DNA from: a virus
IMG/VR virus record: IMGVR_UViG_3300030099_007661
Span: 7,484 to 30,527 of that record
Length of the DNA: 23,044 nucleotides
Strand: one strand, 5' to 3'
Both the position numbers and the translations under genes were made by a program. Below, piece after piece: positions 319-17,618 of the stretch (within the stretch, counting starts at the first letter, position 1; each line of letters starts with the position of its first letter). The notes under the pieces were generated by a model that ran no database searches, was not told where the DNA came from, and worked only from the letters and a program-made list of their open reading frames with translations.

Positions 319-3300
319 CTATGCTAAAAGCTTAAACATTTTTCTGACACTGAAGGTGGAAAACCCCCAATTTGGGTCATACTTCAACCTTGCCATGTAT
401 GGTCGGTTAATATGTATGATATCCCTCTCCGGGTCAACGCCCCAGCATCTAATTGTATTAGTTTCATTGTTGTCATCAATAACCTTGACGACAAAAAAGT
501 TTTTACCGTTCTTTGACTTCTTTAGTTTACACTCCCTTGGAATGAACCAAGTCACACCCAGCTCTGGGTCATATTCTGAAATGGGGGGGATATAAAGTTC
601 GTTAAGTTTGTTTCTTACCGTTTCAGTTATGACAGAGCTAATCGGGAAAACACCGGTTAGATTAACTAAGGATTCGAGCTTCTCTTCTTCACTGAAGTCC
701 CCCTCTGGTTCGTACTTTGCGATATTTTCCTCTAGGTTTTTCAGCTTCCTTGGGCGGTCGACGCAAACTGCCGACCAAAAATGGCGGAGGCCCGAGAACC
801 TCTCGTCAACCAAGTCGTTGAGTGCTTGTGCGCGACATAGAGCATCTAGAGCCTTTTTATTGAGCTTTGAATATTTAACCTTGTCGTGAAACAAAAAGTC
901 TTCAACCGTGTTAAATGGCCTGTGTTCAATAATCTGCTGAATAGCGACTGCGCCGAGGCCCTTGATAGATGTTAGGGGTTGGACCAATGTCTTACTATCT
1001 TCGCTAATCTCCCAATTCACACCCGAAGTGTTTATGTTCAGAGGCTCAACGATATATCCCATTGATTTTGCGGTGGCAATAGCTCTCTCTTTTCTGGTTT
1101 CGGGCTCCTTATCCAAGAAGGCAGCTAGCCATTCGGCTGGATAGTAGTTGAGTAACCAAGCGCACTGATAGGACAAGATACAGTAAGAAACTGCATGAGA
1201 TTTATTGAAGCCATAGCCTGAAAAGTATTCAAACTTGTTCCAAAGCTCTCTTGCCTCGTGCGAGGCCATACCCTTCTCGAGGCAGCCCTTATGAAATTTG
1301 TCAAAGATTTTATCTTTCTCTTCTGCAACTACCCCTGTACCTTTCTTGGTTAAGAGTTTGCGGAGCTTGTTGCCTTCATCTAGGGTCAGGTTCTTGCCAA
1401 GCTTGTGAGCCAGAAGCGCGATTTGCTCTTGAAAAATAAGAAAACCATACGTTTCCTGAGTTACATCACGAACAGTTTGGTTCTGATACTCTACCTCATC
1501 CGGCTCTTGTTTTGCTCCGATGAACATCTTGTCAACGCCGGCTGACAGTGGGCCGGGTCGGTAGATAGAGGTAATCGCCGCAAGGTCTGTAATATTGTCT
1601 GGCTTTGCATTTTTGCAGAACGATTGTGCTCCGGGTTCTGTAAATTGGAAGATACCAGCCCATTTGCCTTTGTGGAATACATTTCGCCAGACCTGACTGT
1701 CATCTAGGTCAATCTTGTCTGGGTGCAGATGCTCATTGTAAAAGTTCCTGACCTGTTCAAATGTTGGGTTATCGATTCCATGGTGTCTCTTTAGGATACG
1801 CTCAACGGCGCCTTCTACCATTCTAAGAGAAGCCAAACCAAGAATATCAAACTTAATAAAACCCATGGGCTCAAGATGTCTAACATTTTGTCCTTCACTC
1901 CAAGGTGTCTGACGGACACCACCACTATTAATTAGTGGCATCCACTCATCTAGTCTCTCGCCAATCACCACACCACCGGCATGACGACTAGCAGAACGAG
2001 TCTGGCCATAGAGCGTTTCGACATGGGTCTTGATGTGTGGATATTTCTCCAAGAATTTTTGAAGCGTTTCAGAATACATCATTAGTTCTTCGAATGTCGG
2101 AGCATAAACACCAGCTGTAATGCCGTGTGCTTTCTTCGCAGGCGGCGTAGCTTCATGAACCATCTTACTGGTCACATTGTTCACCTCTGTAAACTCAATA
2201 CCATAGAACTTTGAAATGTCCTTGATAAGAGAACGAAGCTGTAATGTGTTCCAGTTAGTGATAGGCACAACTGTATCATCACCCCACTCATCAATCAGAT
2301 ATTCCTTCAGAACCATCGGGTCGGATACATCATAGTCAATATCTGGATAGCCTGAGCCGCCCTTGGTTAAAAACCGCTCAAACTGAAGACCATACTTGAT
2401 TGGGTCAACCTGCGTAATGCCAAGAACATAAGACACCAAGGAGCCGGCGGCAGAGCCGCGCCCAGGACCAACAAGCTGTTTCTCGACAGCCATATCAGAA
2501 ATAGCTTTCATTGTCAAGAAGTATTTAGAGAAGCCTCGACCATCAATGATATCGACCTCGTACTTCAACCTCTCGGCATATTCTTTGTTCTCTGCGAGAC
2601 CAAGGCTCCTAGCTCCCTCAACACATAAAGCAGCAAGAGTTTGCCCTGCCGTACTACCTTCTGGCACAACAAAGTCTGGAAGGCGAACCTCATTGTCTGG
2701 TAGAAAGTTTGCGATACGCTCGTGGGCAATATAGTAAGTTCTCTTGATGGACTCAAGAACAAGCTTGTCGTCATACTCTACTCCAACTGACTTGGAGTAA
2801 TTCTTGTATGCTTCCCACATCTGGTCTCCGTTCTTGGGATACAACTCGTATCCAATCTCCTCGACAGAAATAGGCAATTCCTCAGATAAATAATCTGGTC
2901 TGCCTTTGCCCAACCAGCCGAGGCGCTTGTATAACTCTCTGTCTTTCCAGACATTCTCATTGTAGTAGTGAGAATCCGCAGTTGATATCAAGTCGATGCC
3001 AAACTCATAGTGCATCTGAATGATATACTGGTTTAGTTCGTGCTGTTCTGGAATGTTGTTCCACTGTAACTCGCCATACCATCGGTCACCAAAGATAGAC
3101 TGCATCTTTTGTGTCGTGCTTCTCATTGCATCAAGGACAGCATCCGGGCCTTCGTCACGATTTTCCCAATAGTTTCCAGCGTATACACCACCAAGACAGG
3201 CACTGGCTGCAATGACGCCCTTGTTGTATTTCTTCAGCAAAGCATAGTCAACTCGTGGATAGCGATAGAAGTTATCGCCAACATAACTGGTTGAAATCAT

Positions 3301-3753
3301 TTTGAAAATGTTTTGTAAACCTTCTTGGTCTTGCGCAAGGAGAATAAGGTGTCGTCTACGATTTAGGACAGACTTCATCTTTTTCTTTGAAGCTTCGTTC
3401 TCGACGGTTGTACCCGATGAGCCATCTTCATACTCTGACTTCTTCTTCGCTGCTGCTTTGATTTGTTCGTATTCTTTCTTCCACTTTGCAACAGATGGAA
3501 TGAAATATGCCTCAACACCAAAGATTGGTTTGAAGTCTTTTCCTGACTTCTTCATTTTCTTGGCATGAAGAACTTGTCCTGCGAGACCATTAGCATTCCC
3601 ATGGTCAGTAAGTGCAAGGGCGTCCATGCCATTTTCATAAGCAAAGTCCATATGTTCTGCTGGGTACCCGAGGGCGTCAAAGGGTGAGCCCGCGACGGAA
3701 TGGGCATGAAGCCCGACAAAAGGAATACTAGGCTTATTTCTGGACATTTGCAA
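319..3753 (-). CDS. dnaE: DNA polymerase III alpha subunit (DnaE-type, family C), phage replicase
   Basis: This 1144-aa protein is a family C DNA polymerase, probably the main phage replicase. The N-terminal PHP domain (about 10-265) keeps the usual metal ligands: H16, H18, D26, H51, E81, H135, C186, D260 and H262. The palm has GPGRGSAAGS near 429-438, PDIDYD at 470-475 (D471 and D473 match E. coli D401 and D403) and FDILGL at 635-640 (D636 matches D555). RHAGGVVI, YRPGPLSAG and GYGFNKSHA follow in family order. A C-terminal OB-fold-like stretch lies near 1070-1130. The length is normal for DnaE. The start is either TTG at 3753, six bases after GGAGG, or ATG at 3747, twelve bases after it; I keep the TTG. 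It overlaps the 76-aa gene upstream by 20 bases. No separate DnaQ-like proofreader is seen in the window. Confidence 0.96.
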   Translation of the reverse strand: MQMSRNKPSIPFVGLHAHSVAGSPFDALGYPAEHMDFAYENGMDALALTDHGNANGLAGQVLHAKKMKKSGKDFKPIFGVEAYFIPSVAKWKKEYEQIKAAAKKKSEYEDGSSGTTVENEASKKKMKSVLNRRRHLILLAQDQEGLQNIFKMISTSYVGDNFYRYPRVDYALLKKYNKGVIAASACLGGVYAGNYWENRDEGPDAVLDAMRSTTQKMQSIFGDRWYGELQWNNIPEQHELNQYIIQMHYEFGIDLISTADSHYYNENVWKDRELYKRLGWLGKGRPDYLSEELPISVEEIGYELYPKNGDQMWEAYKNYSKSVGVEYDDKLVLESIKRTYYIAHERIANFLPDNEVRLPDFVVPEGSTAGQTLAALCVEGARSLGLAENKEYAERLKYEVDIIDGRGFSKYFLTMKAISDMAVEKQLVGPGRGSAAGSLVSYVLGITQVDPIKYGLQFERFLTKGGSGYPDIDYDVSDPMVLKEYLIDEWGDDTVVPITNWNTLQLRSLIKDISKFYGIEFTEVNNVTSKMVHEATPPAKKAHGITAGVYAPTFEELMMYSETLQKFLEKYPHIKTHVETLYGQTRSASRHAGGVVIGERLDEWMPLINSGGVRQTPWSEGQNVRHLEPMGFIKFDILGLASLRMVEGAVERILKRHHGIDNPTFEQVRNFYNEHLHPDKIDLDDSQVWRNVFHKGKWAGIFQFTEPGAQSFCKNAKPDNITDLAAITSIYRPGPLSAGVDKMFIGAKQEPDEVEYQNQTVRDVTQETYGFLIFQEQIALLAHKLGKNLTLDEGNKLRKLLTKKGTGVVAEEKDKIFDKFHKGCLEKGMASHEARELWNKFEYFSGYGFNKSHAVSYCILSYQCAWLLNYYPAEWLAAFLDKEPETRKERAIATAKSMGYIVEPLNINTSGVNWEISEDSKTLVQPLTSIKGLGAVAIQQIIEHRPFNTVEDFLFHDKVKYSKLNKKALDALCRAQALNDLVDERFSGLRHFWSAVCVDRPRKLKNLEENIAKYEPEGDFSEEEKLESLVNLTGVFPISSVITETVRNKLNELYIPPISEYDPELGVTWFIPRECKLKKSKNGKNFFVVKVIDDNNETNTIRCWGVDPERDIIHINRPYMARLKYDPNWGFSTFSVRKMFKLLA

Positions 3754-4818: not shown

Positions 4819-5587
4819 TATAAAATTCCTCTACTGAAGGGTTTATAAACTTGATTCTATCGCTGTCAAAATATTCATTGTTATCTTCCTCGAATAAAAT
4901 TCTCTCTACATGCTCGACGGTGACCCTCCTAAGCTTAGGTTTGGAGTTTGGTTGTGGAGCTTTTTCATAAACTCCTGCATAGCCAGCATCAGCCAGACAA
5001 CTCCTTAGCTTGAACATTGCCATTGTATCTGAATAATTAAAATCATGCAAGTCTTTTTCTTCTAGTCTTGACAGCGTTATCGCATCTGTTACCCTTTTTG
5101 CTCCATCGACTCGGCCAGAATTGTAGAAACAGGCCTTGAAAACTAATTTATCTAGCGTGTTAATTGGCGATAAGTTTTCTTTCTTGGTCCCCAGCCTGGA
5201 AAGCTTGAAGTCGTCAATAACTAAAAATGTTTTCGGTTTTGCGATTTTTACAGGGTTTTCAAAAGTAATATTCGCATTGTCGCAAATGTAACACTTCTCA
5301 AAAGTATAACTCGCCAAAAGGTCATTTCCAAATAATTTTAGACTATTATCCGACACCCTTATTCTTTTTGTTTCTTTCTCTGTCAGGTTCGCACCCACGA
5401 AACTTAAGATGTTTTGAATTTCATCAAATATCTCTCTCTTTCCCTTCATTCCGAGAAAAGACTGCTTTTCTGGGTCATCAAAGAAGAAAGGACGAAAAGT
5501 ACAATTCGCAATGAAATGGTATTGATTGTAGAAAGCGTACATTATTGAGGCAAGAGAGTGGCCGATAACGATGTTCTTTATAAACAC
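4796..5587 (-). CDS. Unknown protein with a Rossmann-like N-terminus
   Basis: A 263-aa protein that I do not recognise. It opens with a hydrophobic strand and a glycine turn, KNIVIGHSLASIMYAFY, as seen at the start of nucleotide-binding Rossmann-type folds; this is only a resemblance. The middle has a hydrophobic strand FLVIDDF (about 121-127) and the C-terminal half is rich in charged helices. No signal peptide or transmembrane segment is seen. The start is GTG at 5587; no strong Shine-Dalgarno precedes it, but it overlaps the end of the lipoprotein gene by 10 bases, suggesting translational coupling. It also overlaps the nucleotidyltransferase-like gene downstream by 23 bases, so the two may act together. 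Confidence 0.7.
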   Translation of the reverse strand: MFIKNIVIGHSLASIMYAFYNQYHFIANCTFRPFFFDDPEKQSFLGMKGKREIFDEIQNILSFVGANLTEKETKRIRVSDNSLKLFGNDLLASYTFEKCYICDNANITFENPVKIAKPKTFLVIDDFKLSRLGTKKENLSPINTLDKLVFKACFYNSGRVDGAKRVTDAITLSRLEEKDLHDFNYSDTMAMFKLRSCLADAGYAGVYEKAPQPNSKPKLRRVTVEHVERILFEEDNNEYFDSDRIKFINPSVEEFYSGYTTCK

Positions 5588-7644
5588 ATCAACTCTGACG
5601 CGAAAATATAAGCAGGTTCAAATGGATAAGACATAAGTGCTGCCTGGGGACCCTCCTCTCTCGGAAGACACGCCTCGTCAATTATAGACATCAAATCATT
5701 ATACATGCTTAGTGCATCAGATGTGAGCTGGAAATTGCGACCCCCGGTCGCAATTGCCATATCTTCCCAATCTCCGTTGAAGGGTTTAGAGAATGTGTAC
5801 AACTTTAAATTGATTGAGGCCGCGGCCGTGGCAGCAACAATCTCCGCAGTTATAGGGCGCCCGGGGCCCTCAGGGTCATCTGCATCTCGGAGATAAGATT
5901 GTTCATCCTCATCAGAGAACACAATAATGACCCTAGCCGAGTTATCTCTCCAGTTTATAATAAAATTCTCCTTATCTGGTAAACTACTCGTATCCCTCCA
6001 CCAACTGGTTGCTGCTATGTCCACAGGAGCATCCTGTGAGATGTTTCTTGTGGATAGATATATAGCATCGAGTAGCATTTCACTGCCTGTATCCATGCCT
6101 TCGTCGCCTAAAGCAGAAAAACTTGCAAGAAATTGTTCGAAGGGAGAAATATTTGATACCAAAACCAAGGTTTCATCCCCATCCTCAACAAACTCTTTTG
6201 GACCCACAATCAGCCCCCACTGAAGTGGTTCTTCCGCCCTAAAGTGAGTGGAGAACCGATTGAGAGCTATTTTTACTGCCTCGATTTCATCATCCATAGA
6301 CCCAGACCAATCAATTATAAACAAAATATCTGTTTCCCTTATTTCCTCTCCGTAATCAACAACTCCATCACAGTCATTATCGGCGCCGTCACATATCTCT
6401 TCCTGAGGTGTCACTTCGCCCAAACAAAAGCCGGCTTGAAAATTATTATCTACATCGTTGCCCCAGGCGCCGCGTGAGCAGTACATCTCTCCGGGCGAAC
6501 AGACTCCCACAAACAATGTTTCTGGCTGGGCCGTATAACAAGCTTGGGTTAAATCCTCGTCGATGGACTCATCACAATCCTCGTCGAAATTGTTGCAATC
6601 CTCCTGCTGTAAGACAATACCGATGCGCGGGTCGCATGGTGGTGGCTCTGGTACTGGGAGATATGTGCACAATGCCGCACAGTCAGTCATTCTCATCTCT
6701 GTGCAGTTCTCATCTACGCATTCACACGTCTTAAAACCCTGGCCGCACAAAAGCGGACTCTCAAAGCAAGGCATCAAGTTTCCCACATCGTCCGCGGTGC
6801 ACAGGCAATTCAGTTCTTCGTCTATTTGTCCGTCGCAATCGTTGTCTTCGCCATCACATTCCTCATCCGAAGGCTGAGTTGCGGTGCATGATATCCAATT
6901 GCCAGCCATACATGTTTCTATCCCCCTTTCACAGGCGGTCTCGCATGGCCGGACAAGTTCTTCATCAATTGTTCCGTCGCAGTCGTTATCAACGTTATCG
7001 CAGATATCTTGGGGCACTGGGCCGCAGGCATCGCAAACATTCCTTTGCTCTTCATCAATTTCGCCGTCACAGTCGTCGTCCTTATAGTTACACCTCTCTT
7101 CTTCCGGTTCGCAAACTATACACTCTCCATACTCAATATTGCCTTTGGAACATAAGATTTGTTGTTGACCCTCAACGCCCTCTATTTCACATCGAACAGA
7201 AATTGTAATATCATTCTCAATCCCCGGGGGGCACTGAAGGATAGTGTTGCAGCCACTCCTAGACAACACCTCGTTTGGAGGGCATGTCAAGTCCTGGCTC
7301 CTGTCGCAAACTTCGAACATGTCATTACAGATATTCATCACAACTTCGGACGCTTGCACGCCTAACCCACTAGGAGGGCAATACCACATCTGACGCTGGC
7401 AACACTCAGGCTTACAATCGCAAAAGTTATCCTCTGAGCTGGTAACCCTCTCACATGGGTCGATATATGCGTCAGGAAAGAGAAAATCAATATAATAAAT
7501 ATCTGCGTATGCAGCATCTAGCAGGCTCGAATCTACAGATATTCTATGTGCATCTGGATTCATGGAGGAACTGACAGAATTATCGCTGCAAGATACAAGT
7601 GCAGAGACCGTAAGAAAACAAATAAGATTTACAGTGTTGTTCAT
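5578..7644 (-). CDS. Secreted lipoprotein with MopE-like DxDxDG repeats and a C-terminal vWA domain
   Basis: A 688-aa protein with a short N-terminal signal sequence ending in a lipobox (LVSC, lipidated Cys 19). The n-region lacks positive charge, which is atypical. The middle is rich in Cys and Asp and contains five copies of a Cys-anchored DxDCDGxID-type motif (about 185-199, 215-229, 263-277, 350-364, 418-434), like the putative metal-binding MopE repeats of deltaproteobacterial surface proteins. The C-terminal vWA domain (about 438-655) keeps a full MIDAS: DWSGS at 445-449, T519 and D578. It is probably cell-surface attached and binds Ca2+ or Mg2+. The start is ATG 7644, sharing ATGA with the thyX stop; a 31-residue longer reading lacks signal-peptide character. 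Function is unknown: adhesion, surface masking and superinfection exclusion are all possible. Confidence 0.88.
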   Translation of the reverse strand: MNNTVNLICFLTVSALVSCSDNSVSSSMNPDAHRISVDSSLLDAAYADIYYIDFLFPDAYIDPCERVTSSEDNFCDCKPECCQRQMWYCPPSGLGVQASEVVMNICNDMFEVCDRSQDLTCPPNEVLSRSGCNTILQCPPGIENDITISVRCEIEGVEGQQQILCSKGNIEYGECIVCEPEEERCNYKDDDCDGEIDEEQRNVCDACGPVPQDICDNVDNDCDGTIDEELVRPCETACERGIETCMAGNWISCTATQPSDEECDGEDNDCDGQIDEELNCLCTADDVGNLMPCFESPLLCGQGFKTCECVDENCTEMRMTDCAALCTYLPVPEPPPCDPRIGIVLQQEDCNNFDEDCDESIDEDLTQACYTAQPETLFVGVCSPGEMYCSRGAWGNDVDNNFQAGFCLGEVTPQEEICDGADNDCDGVVDYGEEIRETDILFIIDWSGSMDDEIEAVKIALNRFSTHFRAEEPLQWGLIVGPKEFVEDGDETLVLVSNISPFEQFLASFSALGDEGMDTGSEMLLDAIYLSTRNISQDAPVDIAATSWWRDTSSLPDKENFIINWRDNSARVIIVFSDEDEQSYLRDADDPEGPGRPITAEIVAATAAASINLKLYTFSKPFNGDWEDMAIATGGRNFQLTSDALSMYNDLMSIIDEACLPREEGPQAALMSYPFEPAYIFASELMCL
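6343..7092 (-). repeat. Five imperfect coding repeats for DxDxDG metal-binding motifs
   Basis: Inside the lipoprotein gene five imperfect direct repeats of about 45 bases encode the pattern C-x3-D-x-D-C-D-x2-ID-E. Copies 1, 2, 3 and 5 keep DCDG; copy 4 reads DCDES. Spacing is irregular (15 to 75 residues). The DxDxDG spacing is that of EF-hand-like calcium loops, and the flanking cysteines probably form disulfides in the envelope. Confidence 0.8.
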
Positions 7645-8348
7645 TCTTCTCTCTTTCTTTGGAAAGCGCTTACAGAAATTGGGTAATGCTGGAGCGCTAT
7701 CTCCATACACGCCTTTGCAACCTGCTGAATCTCCCATTGGGCCCCGTCGTGAATGCGCAGTGAAACAAACTTTAATAAATTGTGCAAATTTACGGTTCCA
7801 TAGTATTCGGTGTATAAATTTTGCGGCAAAACTCCGCGGGCCTGCTCTCTACAAACTCCCGCTTCAATCATAGCGTTGTAAAGATTCAAACTTCTAGAGT
7901 TATGCATTTTGACAGCATTCGAGGCAGATTCATACCCTATTTGTAAATAAGCAGAATCAAGAGTTGGGTTAACCAACTCATTGTTGCTAGCCTGGCGGTT
8001 GCTTTTGTGCTGTGTTCTAAATTTTGGCGGACTATAGAACCTCATGTCAACACCGGTGTACCTTCTGCTAATCTCATTGTAGGCCCAGGTTCTATGCCTG
8101 TGGTGCTGAGAACGTATGAACAGTGGAACAGTAAAACGCATAGTAATCGTACAGTGTTCAAATGGACTGGTGTGGTTGTGCTGAATAAGGTAATTTATAA
8201 GTTTAATGTCTTTCTCGTCGAGAAAGTGCTTCTCTGCCCCGAAAGAGACTCTTGCTGCATTAACGACTGTTAAATCACTACCCATGTGGGAAACGTATTC
8301 TACTTTTCCTATTCCATCTTCGAATAAATCATAAGTCTTCTGCTTCAT
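7641..8348 (-). CDS. thyX: FAD-dependent thymidylate synthase ThyX
   Basis: A 235-aa ThyX, which makes dTMP from dUMP using methylenetetrahydrofolate, NADPH and FAD. The family motif RHRx7S is at 84-94 (RHRTWAYNEIS) and continues as RRY at 95-97. The conserved C-terminal block is present: REQARGVLPQNLYTEYYGT at about 167-185, then a LRIHDGAQWEI segment. Length is normal for the family. ATG 8348 lies inside the end of the GroES-like gene (20-base overlap), and the stop codon shares an ATGA with the lipoprotein start. With the ribonucleotide reductase nearby it supplies DNA precursors during infection. Confidence 0.97.
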   Translation of the reverse strand: MKQKTYDLFEDGIGKVEYVSHMGSDLTVVNAARVSFGAEKHFLDEKDIKLINYLIQHNHTSPFEHCTITMRFTVPLFIRSQHHRHRTWAYNEISRRYTGVDMRFYSPPKFRTQHKSNRQASNNELVNPTLDSAYLQIGYESASNAVKMHNSRSLNLYNAMIEAGVCREQARGVLPQNLYTEYYGTVNLHNLLKFVSLRIHDGAQWEIQQVAKACMEIALQHYPISVSAFQRKREE

Positions 8349-8676
8349 TGAACCCTCTTAAAAAGCCCATCACATAATTCTCTAAAATTACCGTGTATTT
8401 CTTATCTCTATACTCGATTTCCTCAGTCATTGAAGAGTCAATAATTATTGTCCTCTTTTCTCTTTCTAGGGATTTAATCTTCTGAAAAGCCATCGAGCAA
8501 TCTGGTGCAATTTCTAGAACGGTAGCCGCGACGTAGCGGCTGTTTTTGTTCTCTTTGTAGTCATCGGGCAGAATGACTGCGCTTTTTTGCTCTTCTCGGT
8601 GTTCTAGATTTTTATGTACTATAATTGTCAAGTGCCTATTCAAAGGCTTCAAAACCGGGGCTACCTTATTATACAT
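8329..8676 (-). CDS. GroES/gp31-like co-chaperonin (putative)
   Basis: A 115-aa protein that reads like a diverged GroES-type beta-barrel. It opens with VLKPLNRHLTIIV, comparable to the PLxDRVLV strand of Cpn10. It has a KSAVILPDD segment where GroES has its mobile loop and GIVLP strand, and ends with VILENYVMGFL, comparable to the final vxExDIlail strand. T4 gp31, a phage co-chaperonin used for capsid folding, has a similar size (111 aa). Identity is low, so the call rests on strand order. It overlaps the GapR-like gene by 8 bases and thyX by 20. The start is ATG 8676 with AAGGA about ten bases upstream. Confidence 0.5.
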   Translation of the reverse strand: MYNKVAPVLKPLNRHLTIIVHKNLEHREEQKSAVILPDDYKENKNSRYVAATVLEIAPDCSMAFQKIKSLEREKRTIIIDSSMTEEIEYRDKKYTVILENYVMGFLRGFNEAEDL

Positions 8677-9005: not shown

Positions 9006-9320
9006 TTAAACAGAAAAACTCTCACCGCAACCACAAGTTCTTTTTGCGTTTGGGTTTAAAAATTTAAATCCAGACTGATTTAATTCATTTACAAAATCTA
9101 TTTGTGTTCCCATCAAATAAAGATAGCTTTTTGGGTCAACATAGATGTTGATACCACAACTCTCTAATATCCGGTCGGTAGGTTCCGGGTTGTCAAACTT
9201 TAAATTATATGTGAATCCTGAGCATCCCCCTCCTCGCACTCCAGCTCTGACACCAGTTTCTTCTTTATCTTCGAGAAGTGCTTTTATCTTCGCCGCGGCG
9301 GATTGAGTTAAAGCTATCAT
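9006..9320 (-). CDS. IscA/ErpA-like (HesB family) iron-sulfur carrier
   Basis: A 104-aa A-type Fe-S carrier protein. The three conserved cysteines are present: C33 in GGGCSGF and C96 and C98 in the C-terminal TCGCGESF. Length and fold pattern match bacterial IscA, ErpA and HesB. Such genes occur in several marine T4-like phages. The start codon shares ATGA with the stop of the ribonucleotide reductase, so the two are translationally coupled. The partner apoprotein is not evident, because a class II reductase uses cobalamin rather than an Fe-S cluster; it may sustain host Fe-S enzymes. The stop codon lies just before the promoter of the next operon. Confidence 0.93.
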   Translation of the reverse strand: MIALTQSAAAKIKALLEDKEETGVRAGVRGGGCSGFTYNLKFDNPEPTDRILESCGINIYVDPKSYLYLMGTQIDFVNELNQSGFKFLNPNAKRTCGCGESFSV

Positions 9321-11179: not shown

Positions 11180-12559
11180 TTATCCTGCTCCTCCTTGTTC
11201 TCTTTTAAATGATTGGTACTTTTTCTTTAGATTCTCTAGCCTTTCTTTGGAAGACTTCTCCATTATATCGCTGACCGATTCGTTAGTCTGGTTTAAAACC
11301 TTCACTTTTACGCAACTCGTATCCATAAATATGGGATAAACCAAGCCATCAGGTCCGTTTCTATTTTTTGCCACAAAAATGCGACCCTGGTTATTGTTTT
11401 TATCTTCAATAGTCCTTGAGACTGTAAAAATAAAATCTGCCACAAAACACTTATTAAAAGCCTCAGAAATTGACTCCATGGTGATGACTTCTGCGTTTAG
11501 CCCAGACCTGTTCGTTTGTGAGGCCGTCCACACAGGGCATTCAAACTCTTGAGCCATGCCTCTCAATTCTTCGTAAATAGTCTCCAGCTGGTGTCTTTTT
11601 TCATCTCTTTTTGTTGATTCTGGGCGGATGAGGTCACCATAGTCAACGATTATCATATCAGGAGAAAAATCTCTCCTTCTTAATTTATCAATATGGTTCC
11701 TAATGGTCTGAATGGAAGCTGACCGTGTTGGGTACTCCTTTACAATCAGCTTTCCTGACAGGTCTTTTATTTCATCATATATCTTCTCTTTGAAGACGCT
11801 GAGATTTTTCAGCTCTACGCCTGTGATGGCTGAGTCGTACCTTCCTGCTACTATGGTGTCTCCAAGCTCCAGAGTATAGTGAAGGACGTTCTTACCTGCC
11901 TTAATTGCTTGAGCGCCTAAATGAACAAGAACCATCGACTTTCCGGCGCCAGTAGGCGCCACCACAACTCCTAATTCACCTTTACCCAGGCCGCCCTTCG
12001 CGATGTCGTCTATTTGCTTCCATCCGGTTGTTATTGGGTTTCTAGCCTTTATTTCAAAACGCTTCTCAAAGTCAGCCAGATATTCATAACCCAAAGTGTT
12101 ATCTGAGCCTAATTTTAGTGCTCCGTCGATAATCTTGGACACCTCGTCAAAAGAAGAGGACTTAATCAAATCAACTGACTTAATCAGAGCTTCTTTCAAT
12201 TTTTGCTTTTTGCAGAAATCAAGTGCAGTATCTTTGATATAATCAGCACTATTCGGTATCTTCCCATTTGCGAGTACTCTCGCGTAATATTCTCGTATTC
12301 TAACTTTGACCGACTCTGCTTCGCCATCCAAACCTGTTCGTATGATGGAATGCATAATATTAGATGTGGGGTGGACTCCATACTTTTTCCTATAATCCTT
12401 GATTTTTTTAACAAACACTCTAAGATGTTTGAGTTCCAAAAAGCCCAGGTCTAGCACTTCAAACATCTGGTCTGCAAACGCTCTATCGTTTAGTACAAGA
12501 TGGCACAAATCTTCTTGAAATGATTTTCCAAATTTTGAAAAACTAACTGTGACTTCCAT
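11180..12559 (-). CDS. dnaB: Replicative DNA helicase, DnaB/gp41 family
   Basis: A 459-aa hexameric RecA-fold helicase that would unwind the fork 5'-3'. The N-terminal helical region (1-150) corresponds to the DnaB/gp41 collar. The motor domain has Walker A APTGAGKS at 201-208, catalytic E231 in YTLELG, Walker B MIIVDYGD at 302-309 (D306), the sensor-like SQTN at 347-350 and the KNRNGPDG loop at 398-405 holding the trans arginine region. Length is close to T4 gp41 (475 aa). The C-terminal 40 residues are charged and may contact a primase or loader. No primase is seen in this window. It starts at ATG 12559 after a purine-rich AAGAGAG and is the first of three tightly joined genes (helicase, nrdJ, IscA-like). 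Confidence 0.94.
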   Translation of the reverse strand: MEVTVSFSKFGKSFQEDLCHLVLNDRAFADQMFEVLDLGFLELKHLRVFVKKIKDYRKKYGVHPTSNIMHSIIRTGLDGEAESVKVRIREYYARVLANGKIPNSADYIKDTALDFCKKQKLKEALIKSVDLIKSSSFDEVSKIIDGALKLGSDNTLGYEYLADFEKRFEIKARNPITTGWKQIDDIAKGGLGKGELGVVVAPTGAGKSMVLVHLGAQAIKAGKNVLHYTLELGDTIVAGRYDSAITGVELKNLSVFKEKIYDEIKDLSGKLIVKEYPTRSASIQTIRNHIDKLRRRDFSPDMIIVDYGDLIRPESTKRDEKRHQLETIYEELRGMAQEFECPVWTASQTNRSGLNAEVITMESISEAFNKCFVADFIFTVSRTIEDKNNNQGRIFVAKNRNGPDGLVYPIFMDTSCVKVKVLNQTNESVSDIMEKSSKERLENLKKKYQSFKREQGGAG

Positions 12560-12609: not shown

Positions 12610-13572
12610 TTATTCCGAAAAGGAAGTAATAATATCATTAAATTTTTGTTCCAAGTCTTGCATATTGACGGTTAAGACTCCGTCTTTTATCATCAATTTC
12701 CGCATTTCGGTTTGGTTGTAGTGTGGCGCATATTCTTCAAAGGTTTCGTCGATTCTGCTTTTACACTGGACTGACATCTGCGGAGAGGAAAGCTGCATGA
12801 TGTTATAGTTCTCTTCTATGATTCTTTCAGAGTCCAAAACACTGCTGTATACCTTTTGCTTGTTTTCCTCTTTCTTACACTCGTGTAGGATATCATCAAT
12901 AAAGCAATCATTATCCTCCTTGAGGAAAGAAAACCGCTTGGCGACTGTACCAAGACCAACACGAGGCACACCAGCAAGGTTGTCGCTTGGGTCTCCAGCC
13001 ATGGCGCGCGCCAAAGCGAAGTTTCTAGGGTGGATACCAAACTTCTCGATTACAGTATTAGTGTTCAATACCTCTTTCTGAATTGGTCTGAATAGCAGGG
13101 TTTTGTTATCTAGCAGTTGAATAAAATCCTTGTCAGCAGATACAATAACCTTTTGCCAGTCCTCAAACATCGAAGAAGACTTGATATATGAGATTACATC
13201 GTCTGCTTCTACTTCTGGTTCCATGAATTGGACCATTGGTGTTTGGTTCAGGTATTCAATGACCCGTAGCTGCTGCCAGAGCTTGTTGTTGTCTGTATCT
13301 TGGGCTGTCATCTCATCAGAGTTCCAATTGACCCTAAGGGGTTTTCTACCCGCCTTGTAATTTTTGTTCATGGCTCTGCGTTTCTTAGAGCCGCCCTTAC
13401 CATCCCATACCACAACAATCATATCAGGGTCGATTTCCCTGGTAATTTTATTCATGATATTTATAAATGTCCTCATGCCGCCAATAGGCTGACCATTAGG
13501 GTTCTTGCTTGGGTCTACAATATAGCCTCTGATAAACTGATTGAATGCGTCGACAATCATTACTCTCTTCAT
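12610..13572 (-). CDS. 5'-3' exonuclease / flap endonuclease (FEN, T4 RNase H-like)
   Basis: A 320-aa structure-specific nuclease of the Pol I 5'-nuclease/FEN family, which removes RNA primers and 5' flaps. The acidic sites are visible: D8 (MIVDAFN), D57 (VVWDG), EADD at 122-125, DKD at 147-149 and the GDPSDN motif at 193-198 followed by the helix-hairpin-helix GVPRVGLGT. Length is near T4 RNase H (305 aa). A four-residue longer frame would use a TTG inside the ribosome site; ATG 13572 sits six bases after GGAG and is preferred. The ribosome site directly follows the U-tract of an intrinsic terminator, so expression needs read-through or an internal promoter. Confidence 0.93.
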   Translation of the reverse strand: MKRVMIVDAFNQFIRGYIVDPSKNPNGQPIGGMRTFINIMNKITREIDPDMIVVVWDGKGGSKKRRAMNKNYKAGRKPLRVNWNSDEMTAQDTDNNKLWQQLRVIEYLNQTPMVQFMEPEVEADDVISYIKSSSMFEDWQKVIVSADKDFIQLLDNKTLLFRPIQKEVLNTNTVIEKFGIHPRNFALARAMAGDPSDNLAGVPRVGLGTVAKRFSFLKEDNDCFIDDILHECKKEENKQKVYSSVLDSERIIEENYNIMQLSSPQMSVQCKSRIDETFEEYAPHYNQTEMRKLMIKDGVLTVNMQDLEQKFNDIITSFSE

Positions 13573-13582
13573 TTTCTTCTCC

Positions 13583-13609
13583 AAAAAAAAGCCCGGCTTA
13601 GAGCCGGGC
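13583..13609 (-). terminator. Intrinsic terminator between the recombinase and exonuclease genes
   Basis: On the minus strand a GC-rich 8-bp stem (GCCCGGCT pairing with AGCCGGGC, loop of three) is followed at once by eight U. It starts 12 bases after the recombinase stop codon and its U-tract touches the GGAG of the exonuclease ribosome site. This is a textbook Rho-independent terminator and would lower exonuclease expression relative to ssb and the recombinase. Confidence 0.92.
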
Positions 13610-13621
13610 AGGGTGTGGGTG

Positions 13622-14758
13622 CTAATCGACTTCTACCGGGGGGTCTTCCGTATCATAGAAGTCATCAGCTTTGCCTTCTCTATTCTTGAATTTCATAATA
13701 ACATCTTCGTCCATAATTGTCAAGACACTTGTTCTAAAGTCTTCCTTCTGAAGTTTTTCAGTCCACATCTTGCGTTGGAACTTCTCTTCCGAGCCGTCAT
13801 TTTTCACAAGCGTAAACCAGGCCCCGGATTGCTTAAGTCTCTCGGATACCTGAATGGCGTCGAACCAACTTTCCTCATCTTGGACACCGATATCCTCGTC
13901 ACCCCAAAGAATCTTGAAGTTACAGGTTCTGCCGGCAGTGCCGAAGCGAGACTTTTCAAGCTTCACCTTAACTTCAGAGCCAACGCGGTAGCCGTTATCA
14001 TCCGTAATAAAGGATGCTTTTGCTTTTCTAGCCGTGAGCCAAACTCGAAGAGAATAAGCATAGGACATAGCTTTGCCTCCCGGTGTGAAATAGGGGGTTG
14101 TCATTGCTTCTGCTGGGGTCCTCGCCGCCATGTTAGTCTTTAATTGATTAAGAACCAGCAACGTCGCATTTGCATCAGCAATAGGAATGGTCAGCTTAGC
14201 CATCCCTTTTGACAGAATCCTTGGCTTTACAGCCATTGATGACTGGGGGTTGAAATCACCCTCCACATCGGAAATTGAAGGTGTCAAGGCTAACGAATCC
14301 CAAATGAATAGCCATTTATTGCCCGTCCCCAATAATTCTTCAATCGTCTCCAGAACAAATTCTACGGATTCCGCCTGAACATACATAAGTCTTTCCAAGT
14401 CGCAGCCGGCGCGCTCGAGAAAACTTGGGTCAAGGGCCGACTCAGAATCAAAGTAAACCACATCAATGCCCATTTTTTGGGCATTTCCAGCCACCTGTGC
14501 TGCCATAAACGACTTGCCTGTCGCTTCTAGGCCTGCAATCTCTGAAATTTTACCAACTGGAATACCTGCGAGTTTACCCTTGCAAATGATTGAGTCAAGC
14601 CACCTTGAGCCCGTGGGAATCCACTCGTTCACCTCTGTTGGGTTATTGTTTTGTAACGAATGGGCAACCTCTCGGCCTGCTTTTTTATTGATAATACTTC
14701 TAACTGAAGCGATGTCGAGAGAGCCTTTTTTTAGTTTTGCAATTTTTGACTTAGCCAA
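13622..14758 (-). CDS. uvsX: RecA/UvsX-family recombinase
   Basis: A 378-aa strand-exchange protein. The core shows Walker A GLEATGKS at 76-83, the catalytic glutamate E106 in FDSESALD, Walker B FIWDSLA with D154, and the L2/DNA-binding region from NQLKTNM (204-210) to YFTPGGKAMSYAYS. The acidic C-terminal tail (DFYDTEDPPVEVD) resembles the regulatory tails of RecA and UvsX. Length is close to T4 UvsX (391 aa). The start is TTG at 14758: GGGGAG lies about eight bases upstream, and no in-frame ATG or GTG exists before the conserved core. It follows the ssb gene by 13 bases and ends at an intrinsic terminator, so ssb and the recombinase form one transcription unit. Confidence 0.95.
   Translation of the reverse strand: MAKSKIAKLKKGSLDIASVRSIINKKAGREVAHSLQNNNPTEVNEWIPTGSRWLDSIICKGKLAGIPVGKISEIAGLEATGKSFMAAQVAGNAQKMGIDVVYFDSESALDPSFLERAGCDLERLMYVQAESVEFVLETIEELLGTGNKWLFIWDSLALTPSISDVEGDFNPQSSMAVKPRILSKGMAKLTIPIADANATLLVLNQLKTNMAARTPAEAMTTPYFTPGGKAMSYAYSLRVWLTARKAKASFITDDNGYRVGSEVKVKLEKSRFGTAGRTCNFKILWGDEDIGVQDEESWFDAIQVSERLKQSGAWFTLVKNDGSEEKFQRKMWTEKLQKEDFRTSVLTIMDEDVIMKFKNREGKADDFYDTEDPPVEVD
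13695..13723 (-). promoter_or_regulatory. Candidate promoter inside the 3' end of the recombinase gene
   Basis: On the minus strand TTGACA (13723-13718) is followed by 17 bases and TATTAT (13700-13695, five of six). It lies within the recombinase coding sequence, about 85 bases before the terminator. Transcripts from here would meet the terminator and then the exonuclease gene, a possible promoter-attenuator pair. Intragenic location lowers confidence. Confidence 0.35.
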
Positions 14759-14771
14759 AATATTTTCTCCC

Positions 14772-15524
14772 CTAAGTGTTTAATAGGTCGTTAAAAGCAG
14801 CCTCGACTGCTGAGGTTTCAGAATTTTCTGTTCCGTACTTTTCAACCTCTGAGTTTCCCTCTCCTGAGCAGAGAAATTGGTCTAAAATGCTTTGCACCTC
14901 TTCGGTTGTTTTTCTTTCAAAAATTTCATCAAAGTTTGGGATAGTCTCTAACAGTTCTGCGCATCGCTCGTCTCCGCCGACTACATCGTCGCAAAGAACT
15001 GTTTTTCTCGGTCGGGGTCGAATGTCTGTTCGTGGAAAGCTTGCGCCGGGCAACTTACCATACATTAGCTTCAAATCGTTTCCAGTTTCCGGGTCGGTGA
15101 TGTCCCCATAATCTGGGTCCAGAACGATAGTGAGTAACTTCTCATATGCCATCTTGCCATATCCCCAAACCTTAATGCCCTCAGACTCCTCACCTCGCAC
15201 TAAGACAGGCGAGAAGAAGCGCTGCTTTGCAAACAAGTCTTTCGCCTGCTTTTTGCTATCTTCGGTACCCTCGTTCCAAAGTTTGTTTGCGAAATCACAA
15301 ACAGGACAGTTATCACCAAAGTTTCTCTTTGGGCACAAAAAGCTTCGTGCATCCCCCACGTTATAGTGGAAGTACCTCTCCTTAAAGGGGTCTCCATCCG
15401 GGGTAGAAACAATTCGAATATTGCTTTCGCCGTCCTCTGGGCGCCAAAAATTATTTCTCTTTCCGTCACCCTTTCCATTAAGCTTATCAAGCTTTGCCTT
15501 CATTGCGTCTAAATTAAGTGCCAT
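14772..15524 (-). CDS. Single-stranded DNA-binding protein, T4 gp32-like
   Basis: A 250-aa ssDNA-binding protein of the gp32 type. The core holds a zinc site with H53, C64, C73 and C76 (His-x10-Cys-x8-Cys-x2-Cys), close to the H64/C77/C87/C90 site of T4 gp32. The basic N-terminus (KLDKLNGKGDGKR) suits cooperative self-association. The C-terminus is acidic with a hydrophobic end, EAAFNDLLNT, the kind of tail that recruits replication partners. It is somewhat shorter than T4 gp32 (301 aa). ATG 15524 has a perfect AGGAGG eight bases upstream. It is the first gene after a near-consensus promoter and a structured leader, so strong and controlled expression is likely. Confidence 0.93.
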   Translation of the reverse strand: MALNLDAMKAKLDKLNGKGDGKRNNFWRPEDGESNIRIVSTPDGDPFKERYFHYNVGDARSFLCPKRNFGDNCPVCDFANKLWNEGTEDSKKQAKDLFAKQRFFSPVLVRGEESEGIKVWGYGKMAYEKLLTIVLDPDYGDITDPETGNDLKLMYGKLPGASFPRTDIRPRPRKTVLCDDVVGGDERCAELLETIPNFDEIFERKTTEEVQSILDQFLCSGEGNSEVEKYGTENSETSAVEAAFNDLLNT

Positions 15525-15604: not shown

Positions 15605-15633
15605 ATCATACTATAAAATTAGTTTTCTGTCAA
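15605..15633 (-). promoter_or_regulatory. Sigma70-type promoter for ssb and the recombinase
   Basis: On the minus strand a perfect TTGACA (15633-15628) is followed by 17 bases and TATGAT (15610-15605, five of six). The -35 box overlaps the last codons of the upstream FtsZ-like gene. The predicted start of transcription is near 15598, giving a leader of about 74 bases before ATG 15524. It is the best promoter in the window by position and match. Confidence 0.82.
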
Positions 15634-16473
15634 TAGATAATTTTGAATTTTTGGCGAATGATATTCTACATAGACATAGTCTGACTCGTACTTTGTCGGG
15701 TAAATACCGAAATACACTTTCATGTTGTCTGAAATTTTACTTTTAATGTTTTCAGTCAATTCTCTTAATAAATTCCCTTCAGACTTTAGTTTTTGCTCAT
15801 TTATACCAAAATAGTATATCACCTCCGTTCCCTGCTTGAAAGGAAAAAACACTTTGTCTTCACACTGCAGGTTGCTAATCCCGATAGTCTTTATCCTTGA
15901 TGATTCTTTTATCTTAGAAAAAGTTGAAAAAATTGGTTTTGTGTTTTTGAAGACCTCAATCATGTGATAAGAATCGCAAAAAATATCATTAATTTGTTCA
16001 AAGTATTCGAATACGTTTATGGACTCAACCAAGCTTTCCACAGCCCGATTTGAAACTAGCGTGATTTCTTCGAACAGCCCAGAGCGCGCATATTCTTGAA
16101 GCACGTTTTTAACTGTTCTCTCTTGCAATTTTTGCTGCTCTGAGCATAACTCTGTGTCTGGTTCAAAATAGACTACTTTAATATTTATTGATTTTTTATA
16201 AAAATACTCTAATAATCTAAGAGCCATGGCACTGGTTTTTGATGCTCCGCAAACAAAGAGTGTCACTTCCTTTTTGATGTGTTTCAAGAAATTAATTTTA
16301 GATATATTCTCAAAAGACTCATACTCTTCAGGGTCTGTGTATTCTGGGATAATGTAAGAATTTTTTGACTTGCTTCCTGAATTTTTTACACTATATAAAG
16401 CATAGTTGCCGTATTTTTCCAGCGAAGAAGCAATTGCATCTGCAGCATTTCCAAGTGTCAAGATATTTTTCAA
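15619..16473 (-). CDS. Divergent FtsZ/tubulin-fold protein with degenerate GTP-binding motifs (putative)
   Basis: A 284-aa protein whose strand and helix order follows FtsZ. The N-terminus KNILTLGNAADAI stands in place of the FtsZ T1 segment, followed by a strand YALYSVKN. VTLFVCGASKTSAMA (70-84) sits where FtsZ has the strand and GGGTGTG signature. IKVVYFEP (98-105), a VLQEYARSGLF helix and ITLVSN match FtsZ strands S5-S6, and FEQINDIF (158-165) matches helix H7 with its guanine-stacking Asn. VIYYFGI to SDNMKVYFG (218-256) mirrors the C-terminal domain. The T4 glycines and the T7 catalytic NxDxxD are missing, so GTPase activity is doubtful. The start is TTG 16473 after AAGGGTG, overlapping the polymerase stop as TTGA. 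Role unknown; I inferred the homology by eye. Confidence 0.6.
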   Translation of the reverse strand: MKNILTLGNAADAIASSLEKYGNYALYSVKNSGSKSKNSYIIPEYTDPEEYESFENISKINFLKHIKKEVTLFVCGASKTSAMALRLLEYFYKKSINIKVVYFEPDTELCSEQQKLQERTVKNVLQEYARSGLFEEITLVSNRAVESLVESINVFEYFEQINDIFCDSYHMIEVFKNTKPIFSTFSKIKESSRIKTIGISNLQCEDKVFFPFKQGTEVIYYFGINEQKLKSEGNLLRELTENIKSKISDNMKVYFGIYPTKYESDYVYVEYHSPKIQNYLLTEN

Positions 16474-17618
16474 ATTTTCACCCTTCTCATTTCTCCGTAA
16501 TTCTTACCGATACTGACTGTTGAAAGAAACTCTCCAAACATATTTTTCTCAAACTCCTTCTTCAAAGGAGCAACCAAGTGATGTTCACTTTGTGCAAAAT
16601 CCAGCACCACAGAGTCATGCATAGTAAAGGCAACAAAGCTCTTCTTTCCTCTCAATAGGTTCATTATATTATAACAGCTATTTAAGACTATATCACTAGT
16701 TGTAGATTGTGTCAAGTAGTTTAGAGCCCTTCTTTCGTCAGTCTCTAGCTTTCTTCCAAAGGGAGTCTTTATCCGTCCGTTTTCATAATGCTTTTCATAA
16801 GCGCGCTTGTCATAGAACTTTTCTAGGTTTTTATCCTTTGCTTCTGGGTTATAAAGCCACGCAAAAAATTTTGCTTTTACTTCTTTTCTTGATTTTGAGC
16901 TTTGCTTTATGATTTCTCTGTTAAATTCATGAATATCATAATTCGGTTGTGGTTGACCTGAGAGAGAAAGCAGAGTTCTTACCTCTGCCCCATTTAGGTC
17001 TATTTCCAAAAAAACATCGTTTTTAGGAAGAAGATTTTTCCTTTCTTCTTTTGAAATATTTAAAATAGGAAAGGAACCCCTTTTAGTCGCAAGGCGACCA
17101 GTGGAAGAAGAGAAAATATCATACTTTATCTTTCTTTCAGAATCAGAAAAAGTTATTTTTTGCCTTGCTATCTCTTGGGTTATTACGTGTATTTTGTGCA
17201 AAATATCATAATGACTAGGGGCTGATAGTCTCTTGGCAGATTCTCTAATTATATCTTCTCTACAAGAAAACCACTTACTCATCATGTGGTCAGGCAACAA
17301 GTCAAAAAAGCAACCTTTGCGAATGTCTACTTTTGCCGTGACTGCGGCTAGTTTTTGGGCTTTTATCATCTGCTCGTAAGACCTAATCTGATTAAGTTGG
17401 TCTGCTGACGCGGACGATAGGGTTTCAAATCTCCCATTATCGGAATAGAGAGATAAAAAAACTATATTCTTTTCATATTCTGCAAAAACTGGTGAGTACG
17501 TCCAAGAATAGCTGGTCTCTTGCAGACTTTGGTCGATGGTGTCTCTATCAAAAATAAAGCGATTTTTAAAAAAGGCGCCATGGCAATTATTTTCAAAATC
17601 TAGTGTCTGTATAATCAT
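16470..17618 (-). CDS. Minimal family A DNA polymerase (palm and fingers only)
   Basis: A 382-aa protein with the full family A active site but no 3'-5' exonuclease domain and little room for a thumb. TGRL (173-176) and the following FPILNIS match TGRLSSxxPNLQNIP. Motif A is EIDLNGAEVR with D207 and E212 (E. coli D705, E710). The O helix has R244, K248, F252 and Y256 at the exact spacing of R754, K758, F762 and Y766. YLTQSTTSDI (301-310) matches QGTAADI. Motif C is MHDS with H334 and D335 (normally HDE). The region between the O helix and QSTTSDI is shorter than in Pol I. It starts at ATG 17618 and may act in repair, primer-gap filling or specialised synthesis alongside the DnaE-type enzyme. 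Confidence 0.85.
   Translation of the reverse strand: MIIQTLDFENNCHGAFFKNRFIFDRDTIDQSLQETSYSWTYSPVFAEYEKNIVFLSLYSDNGRFETLSSASADQLNQIRSYEQMIKAQKLAAVTAKVDIRKGCFFDLLPDHMMSKWFSCREDIIRESAKRLSAPSHYDILHKIHVITQEIARQKITFSDSERKIKYDIFSSSTGRLATKRGSFPILNISKEERKNLLPKNDVFLEIDLNGAEVRTLLSLSGQPQPNYDIHEFNREIIKQSSKSRKEVKAKFFAWLYNPEAKDKNLEKFYDKRAYEKHYENGRIKTPFGRKLETDERRALNYLTQSTTSDIVLNSCYNIMNLLRGKKSFVAFTMHDSVVLDFAQSEHHLVAPLKKEFEKNMFGEFLSTVSIGKNYGEMRRVKI
16687..16715 (-). promoter_or_regulatory. Weak candidate promoter inside the family A polymerase gene
   Basis: On the minus strand TTGACA (16715-16710) is followed by 17 bases and TATAGT (16692-16687, five of six). It lies within the coding sequence for the conserved QSTTSDI motif, about 215 bases before the FtsZ-like gene. 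The protein sequence constrains these bases, so it may be chance. Confidence 0.2.

Follow-up and report, generated by a model that had tools for sequence, protein, structure and literature searches.

A phage protein family with a predicted tubulin fold, without the hallmark GTPase motifs and encoded next to a family-A DNA polymerase gene

The protein encoded on the minus strand at positions 15619-16473 of the window (the whole stretch of DNA analysed, 23,044 nucleotides, being bases 7484-30527 of an IMG/VR virus record of 30,527 bases) belongs, on our best reading of its predicted fold, to a new phage family within the tubulin/FtsZ superfamily; it was not filed as FtsZ, TubZ or PhuZ because the family fails the motifs by which these are defined. 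A compact protein of this superfamily that has lost GTP hydrolysis and works within the phage replication apparatus is the explanation preferred here, at what we regard as an even chance. The more specific proposal, that the GTPase-stripped tubulin fold is a dedicated subunit of the phage replication complex, partnering a minimal family-A polymerase and a gp32-type single-stranded DNA-binding protein (ssb), is put forward tentatively, and we know of no tubulin or FtsZ relative with such a role. The gene itself is more than a chance reading frame, with 101 orthologues, purifying selection and two independent models of one fold.

The initial annotation had placed an ORF of 284 residues at these positions, which proved exact, and the plus strand across 15619-16473 is full of stops with no open frame there. 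The TTG start shares a 4-nt overlap (TTGA) with the end of the polymerase gene upstream, and an identical copy of the gene is present in a 130.7-kb contig. Its location beside DNA replication genes, also pointed out initially, was borne out by the polymerase upstream and the ssb downstream, and the same-strand cluster runs in the order family-A polymerase, tubulin-like gene, gp32-type ssb, RecA/UvsX, 5'-3' exonuclease and DnaB helicase:

16470-17618, minus strand: short family-A DNA polymerase gene (PF00476, E=1.3e-8; PHROG 17 DNA polymerase, E=4e-19)
15619-16473, minus strand: gene of the predicted tubulin/FtsZ-fold protein, 284 aa, TTG start (ORF, AlphaFold2, Foldseek, 101 distinct full-length orthologues)
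14772-15524, minus strand: downstream gene of the gp32-type ssb (PF08804, E=4.8e-12)
13622-14758, minus strand: UvsX/RecA-like recombinase, the next gene of the replication cluster (PF00154, E=8.4e-35)
12610-13584, minus strand: 5'-3' exonuclease, FEN-type (PF02739, E=1.9e-27)
11180-12559, minus strand: DnaB-like replicative helicase (PF03796, E=6.4e-23)
319-3753, minus strand: DnaE-type polymerase III alpha with PHP, NTPase, finger and HHH domains, towards the opposite end of the window

Two polymerases are encoded by this phage, the DnaE-type polymerase III alpha and the minimal family-A enzyme (382 aa, with no recognisable exonuclease domain). Amid nucleotide and replication genes lies that of a 719-aa protein (5578-7737, minus strand) with MopE-type metal-binding motifs (PF11617) and an apparent VWA domain, which is unusual in a phage. 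Genes for an IscA/HesB-type Fe-S assembly protein and a GroES-like protein (9006-9320 and 8329-8676, respectively, both minus strand) adjoin those of ThyX and a B12-dependent-type ribonucleotide reductase and represent auxiliary metabolic genes.

Single-sequence searches of Pfam, PHROG, PDB sequences and cultured phages gave nothing significant for the window protein, and 50,697 deposited phage records contained no match to it. A second contig, reached by searching with the polymerase, encoded a protein of 61% identity at the corresponding place, and iterated IMG/VR searches then raised the number of matches from 27 to 110 and 477. The family set, assembled from fetched loci, comprised 101 distinct full-length proteins with intact ORFs of about 276-293 aa, divided in the tree into clade A (n=15, including the window protein), clade B (n=26) plus the isolated member L099, and the larger and divergent clade C (n=59), which is about 35% identical to the window protein. 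Purifying selection was evident between close pairs (dN/dS 0.03-0.12), the gene was single-copy in 13/13 large contigs, and no other Pfam tubulin was detected in 10 large contigs. The relatives occur in hundreds of marine phage contigs and are named by no annotation library; the family is nowhere described in the papers found, in a literature search confined largely to open-access journals. Among bacterial and archaeal genomes there was a single match, L268 (CP070664.1, WOR-3 bacterium MAG bin77), which was rejected as a cellular homologue; because its genes follow the phage order pol-tub-ssb-recA and the sequence contains a run of N, it is probably a phage fragment scaffolded into a 2.8-Mb MAG chromosome, that is, a chimera in a public assembly.

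The strand and helix order of both FtsZ domains, including an H7-like helix, had been proposed from the sequence and was seen in a first AlphaFold2 model, built from an alignment of 37 clade A/B sequences (window protein: mean pLDDT 89.4, pTM 0.88). The model comprises E2-7, H9-21, E24-30, E69-75, H79-93, E97-104, H112-131 and E136-141 in its N-terminal part, followed by H154-176 (H7), E194-200, E217-225, H235-244, E251-260 and E266-273, with about 11 unstructured residues beyond the last strand. Its central and C-terminal features map to the window as follows:

15946-16014, minus strand: predicted long central helix H7, residues 154-176 (helix in the model; register from hhalign)
15643-15894, minus strand: predicted C-terminal alpha/beta domain, residues 194-277, with no long H11 after it (secondary structure of the model)

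In a Foldseek comparison of the window protein with the PDB, the best 50 matches were all FtsZ or TubZ. The top match, 4dxd (FtsZ), covered both domains (E=1.8e-13, TM 0.72 by query length, 313 columns), and the structural matches mostly had TM 0.66-0.74 by query length over about 310 alignment columns that include the C-terminal domain. The top match in the viral library (TM 0.78) was a phage protein of 452 aa that carries the annotation FtsZ cell division GTPase; PhuZ-type proteins ranked next, followed by a clear drop, with non-tubulin matches at TM about 0.4. A second model, based exclusively on 38 clade C sequences (pLDDT 92.5, five out of five models in agreement), retrieved CetZ, FtsZ, TubZ and eukaryotic tubulin independently of the first. 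Structure prediction with Foldseek, the check put forward in the initial annotation, gave tubulin-superfamily proteins as top matches over both domains in two clades about 35% identical. By computation the protein is a two-domain tubulin fold, the two independent models sharing the Rossmann-like N-terminal domain, the alpha/beta C-terminal domain and the H7 between them that characterize the superfamily.

Comparison by sequence alone points weakly in the same direction. Pfam PF00091 gave no significant match (best E 0.089, for L198, 13.3 bits against a cut-off of 33), and most clade C members matched NCBIfam TIGR00065 (ftsZ), none significantly (best E 0.04). Profile comparison, also suggested initially, agreed weakly: the hhalign local alignment with the FtsZ profile was in register from T4 to H7, with an E-value of 0.065-0.12 that is not significant and a score equalled by 3/200 block-shuffled profiles, while hhalign against phiKZ PhuZ detected no sequence similarity (24 columns, probability 0.3%). 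The C-terminal SDNMKVYFG stretch had been compared with SDNATVVIG of E. coli FtsZ; the strands are equivalent, and since the family does not conserve SDN, the literal match of these letters is a coincidence. FtsZ matches in deposited phages were near-canonical bacterial sequences (OR84xxxx, MT83xxxx, CAKLQ*), and the records are probably bacterial contamination since the ftsZ is of canonical bacterial type and one copy lies beside ftsA/lpxC; these sequences were used solely to build the FtsZ profile.

Replacement of the T4 glycines by CGASKTSA and loss of the catalytic T7 NxDxxD, both read from the window protein initially, were confirmed and extend to the whole family, with 0/101 members carrying the T4 signature [SAG]GGTG[SAT]G and 0/101 carrying NxDxxD anywhere in the protein. 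As both are missing in 101/101, the GTPase is very probably dead, and GTP hydrolysis lost throughout the family. The corresponding elements are:

16432-16458, minus strand: T1-like loop, residues 6-14 TLGNAADAI (family consensus GxGxAGCNI; G8 in 101/101, A10 in 93/101)
16219-16254, minus strand: T4-like loop and start of H4, residues 74-85 VCGASKTSAMAL, GGGTG[ST]G lost (signature in 0/101)
16048-16050, minus strand: Asn142 at T6, in the register of E. coli FtsZ Asn165 by hhalign (Asn in 97/101)
15907-15945, minus strand: T7-equivalent loop, residues 177-189 NTKPIFSTFSKIK, catalytic NxDxxD absent (0/101 members)

The loops differ between clades. Clade C has a T1 of GLGxAGCNIAD and a glycine-rich T4 loop, VGGSGNISGA; clade B has GIGTAGCNVV and CGASNSSG; and clade A has ALGNAACNI (TLGNAADAI in the window copy) and CGASKTSA. 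This apparent graded loss from C through B to A is described as a series rather than a direction because the tree is unrooted. Four residues (G8, Y24, Y51 and E52) are invariant in the 101 members, and conservation around the pocket is high at G76 (99%), P105 (97%), N142 and N162 (96% each, 97/101). By profile register in hhalign rather than by coordinates, N162 in H7 would correspond to E. coli FtsZ N186, and residue 158 in H7 (Phe in the window protein; Tyr, Phe, His or Asn in the family) to FtsZ F182. In FtsZ, N165 and N186 form the guanine side of the nucleotide site and F182 is the stacking residue. Coil on the pocket side (top face) was better conserved than coil elsewhere in a permutation test (p=0.004) on ten positions that the author had selected according to where T loops were expected. 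The description of the protein as nucleotide-free, as given initially, hence went beyond the evidence, in view of the high conservation of Gly8, Tyr51/Glu52, Gly76, Asn142 and Asn162 and of the glycine-rich T4 loop of clade C. Since T1 and the putative guanine-contact equivalents are retained in most members, the protein may bind a ligand without hydrolysing it.

Gene context was analysed in 245 plus-strand loci, which are not independent as several contigs give more than one locus. In all 224 loci whose flank was long enough, a polymerase of the same family lay upstream, at 1.6 kb in one case and within 1.2 kb in the other 223. On the downstream side, where 237 loci had sufficient flank, a gp32-type ssb was found within 1.2 kb in 208, farther away in 28 and not found in 1; by clade, it was within this distance in 120/148 testable A/B loci and 88/89 C loci. 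A link this strict with PolA and ssb speaks for a role in replication. In 44/52 distinct tabulated genes, which are all the A/B ones but one, the start codon begins within the stop of the polymerase gene, as TTGA or ATGA, so that translational coupling to the polymerase is implied. In clade C, either the overlap with the polymerase gene measures 1, 2, 7, 10 or 13 nt or the two genes are separated by a small inserted one (often MazG-like, about 103 aa). As the overlaps differ between clades, the sequences suggest that coupling to the polymerase has itself been maintained and reached in several ways. A reading of the TTG start as a sign of weak expression was dropped; the codon is preceded by a good Shine-Dalgarno-like AGAAGG, ATG is mostly used in clade C, and TTG may serve as a start codon elsewhere in this phage too.

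Against a replication role, the order of phage genes can mirror expression timing instead of physical contact. Moreover, such a replisome can do without a tubulin fold, since similar PolA...ssb clusters carry a different protein of about 130 aa, as found in the slot of related clusters outside the group (Microcystis phage Mel-JY01, Flavobacterium phage immuto and LR756508). The polymerase-ssb slot of Mel-JY01 and immuto contained no FtsZ-like gene, with other proteins in its place, and two small immuto genes considered as a split tubulin were rejected from their sequence. The slot proteins of Mel-JY01, immuto and a 484-kb uncultured phage form a family of about 130-150 aa (HRKKxSNTLYTINxLNxLI; L108:3867-4256, L109:1346-1801 and L267:4374-4763). 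The interval between the tubulin-like and ssb genes is a variable spot, with inserts of 1-3.6 kb in L010, L011, L024, L060, L078, L079, L083 and L086. The inserted genes resemble DNA methyltransferases (DPPY/NPPY motifs) and GHKL-type ATPases, others being of no known type, and the interval is reminiscent of a defence/counter-defence cargo site.

In comparison with known systems, the family shares with FtsZ the two-domain fold and element order, the T4-H7 register in hhalign and, by that register, putative counterparts of the Asn residues at T6 and H7. It is, however, only about 11% identical to FtsZ, shorter, devoid of GGGTG[ST]G, NxDxxD and a recognised C-terminal FtsA/ZipA-binding tail, and encoded in a phage replication operon rather than a division cluster. 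CetZ provided the best PDB match of the clade C model (3zid, E 5e-12), which also matched TubZ (4ei7 and 2xka). Both CetZ and TubZ are larger than the family and keep the nucleotide motifs, and TubZ additionally possesses a long C-terminal helix as well as a partition locus with TubR and a centromere, whereas no TubR-like partner was recognised among the annotated neighbours of the family. PhuZ and TubZ filaments make contacts via a long C-terminal H11 helix and tail, which are missing from the model of the window protein. PhuZ is likewise a phage-encoded member of the superfamily (Foldseek match to Noxifer PhuZ, E 2e-7), but it belongs to nucleus-forming jumbo phages, whereas the present family lacks the GTPase motifs and lies beside PolA in contigs of up to 190 kb (<=190 kb). 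PhuZ hydrolyses GTP and forms dynamic, GTP-driven spindle filaments (PMC7950403). Divergent cellular families of the superfamily, some without recognisable elements, were described as FtsZl1 and FtsZl2 by Makarova and Koonin in 2010 (PMC2875224). FtsZl1 keeps the GGGTG(S/T)G loop and occurs in membrane-remodelling operons, and FtsZl2 keeps T1, T4, T6 and T7 (PMC2875224); the phage family, in contrast to these cellular ones, has neither the T4 nor the T7 signature.

The tubulin fold would also suit a static cytoskeletal filament, a head-to-tail polymer of the PhuZ/TubZ type that positions or segregates replicating phage DNA without hydrolysis. This is an unlikely yet serious alternative: known phage tubulins perform DNA positioning, PhuZ T7 mutants still form filaments, which are non-dynamic (PMC7950403), the genomes are large (contigs up to 190 kb), and both longitudinal faces are conserved in clades A/B, at the top loops and at P180, S183 and T184 of the T7-equivalent loop, which are invariant there. 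Across the whole family, however, this loop is among the less conserved regions (mean entropy 2.08 versus 1.63-1.78 in the domains), and the absence from the model of a long H11 or extended tail, together with the lack of a recognised TubR-like partner or centromere array among annotated neighbours, argues against filaments of this type.

The protein might instead mimic FtsZ, capping the host FtsZ or joining its assembly so that the Z-ring is blocked, an effect that SulA and MciZ achieve with other folds; this is judged improbable. An FtsZ-like fold with a defective T7 side would be the expected design of a cap, the best structural matches are FtsZ, and this is the sole tubulin-like gene found in the contigs. 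Against such an antagonist of host division, identity to FtsZ is merely about 11%, the gene is coupled translationally to a DNA polymerase and not to early host-takeover genes, and it is kept across very divergent phages under the purifying selection noted above, with no sign of host-tracking diversification.

That this is an ordinary Rossmann-like enzyme or binding protein whose model only looks like FtsZ is very unlikely; weak single-member Pfam matches to Rossmann families (YjeF_N, E=0.0008; TrkA_N) and the non-significant FtsZ similarity by sequence are outweighed by matches that span the C-terminal domain, by the exclusively FtsZ/TubZ best 50 PDB matches, by the independent clade C result and by the fall of non-tubulin viral matches to TM about 0.4. 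A former tubulin drifting neutrally in a compact operon is scarcely credible: the branch leading to the window copy is long (0.49) and the T1 of this copy no longer has N13, but the low dN/dS, the 101 distinct intact ORFs, the invariant residues spread along the protein and the constant single copy contradict decay.

Under the preferred reading, of a tubulin-like protein at work in phage replication, the conserved pocket (T1, T3, T4 Gly, T6 Asn and H7 Asn) would still hold a ligand, probably a nucleotide, or might alternatively serve as a longitudinal contact face. Lacking a T7 that could set off hydrolysis, the protein would behave as a stable adaptor or a short static polymer and not as a dynamic motor. 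It could bind the co-translated polymerase and/or ssb-coated DNA, and may organise the replication fork or the pool of replicating DNA.

The known phage tubulins, PhuZ and TubZ, are hydrolysing filament formers of large or plasmid-like phages. The present family, abundant and formerly unannotated, would have kept the tubulin fold while dropping both hallmark GTPase motifs, and its gene is nearly inseparable from that of a DNA polymerase. This would widen the uses of the tubulin fold, the near-constant polymerase neighbourhood pointing to a replication-linked job not described before, and the pocket series from the glycine-rich clade C through CGASNSSG in clade B to CGASKTSA in clade A offers material on how a cytoskeletal GTPase changes its job. 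It would also permit a function to be assigned to a gene that is carried by hundreds of marine phage contigs and unnamed in annotation libraries.
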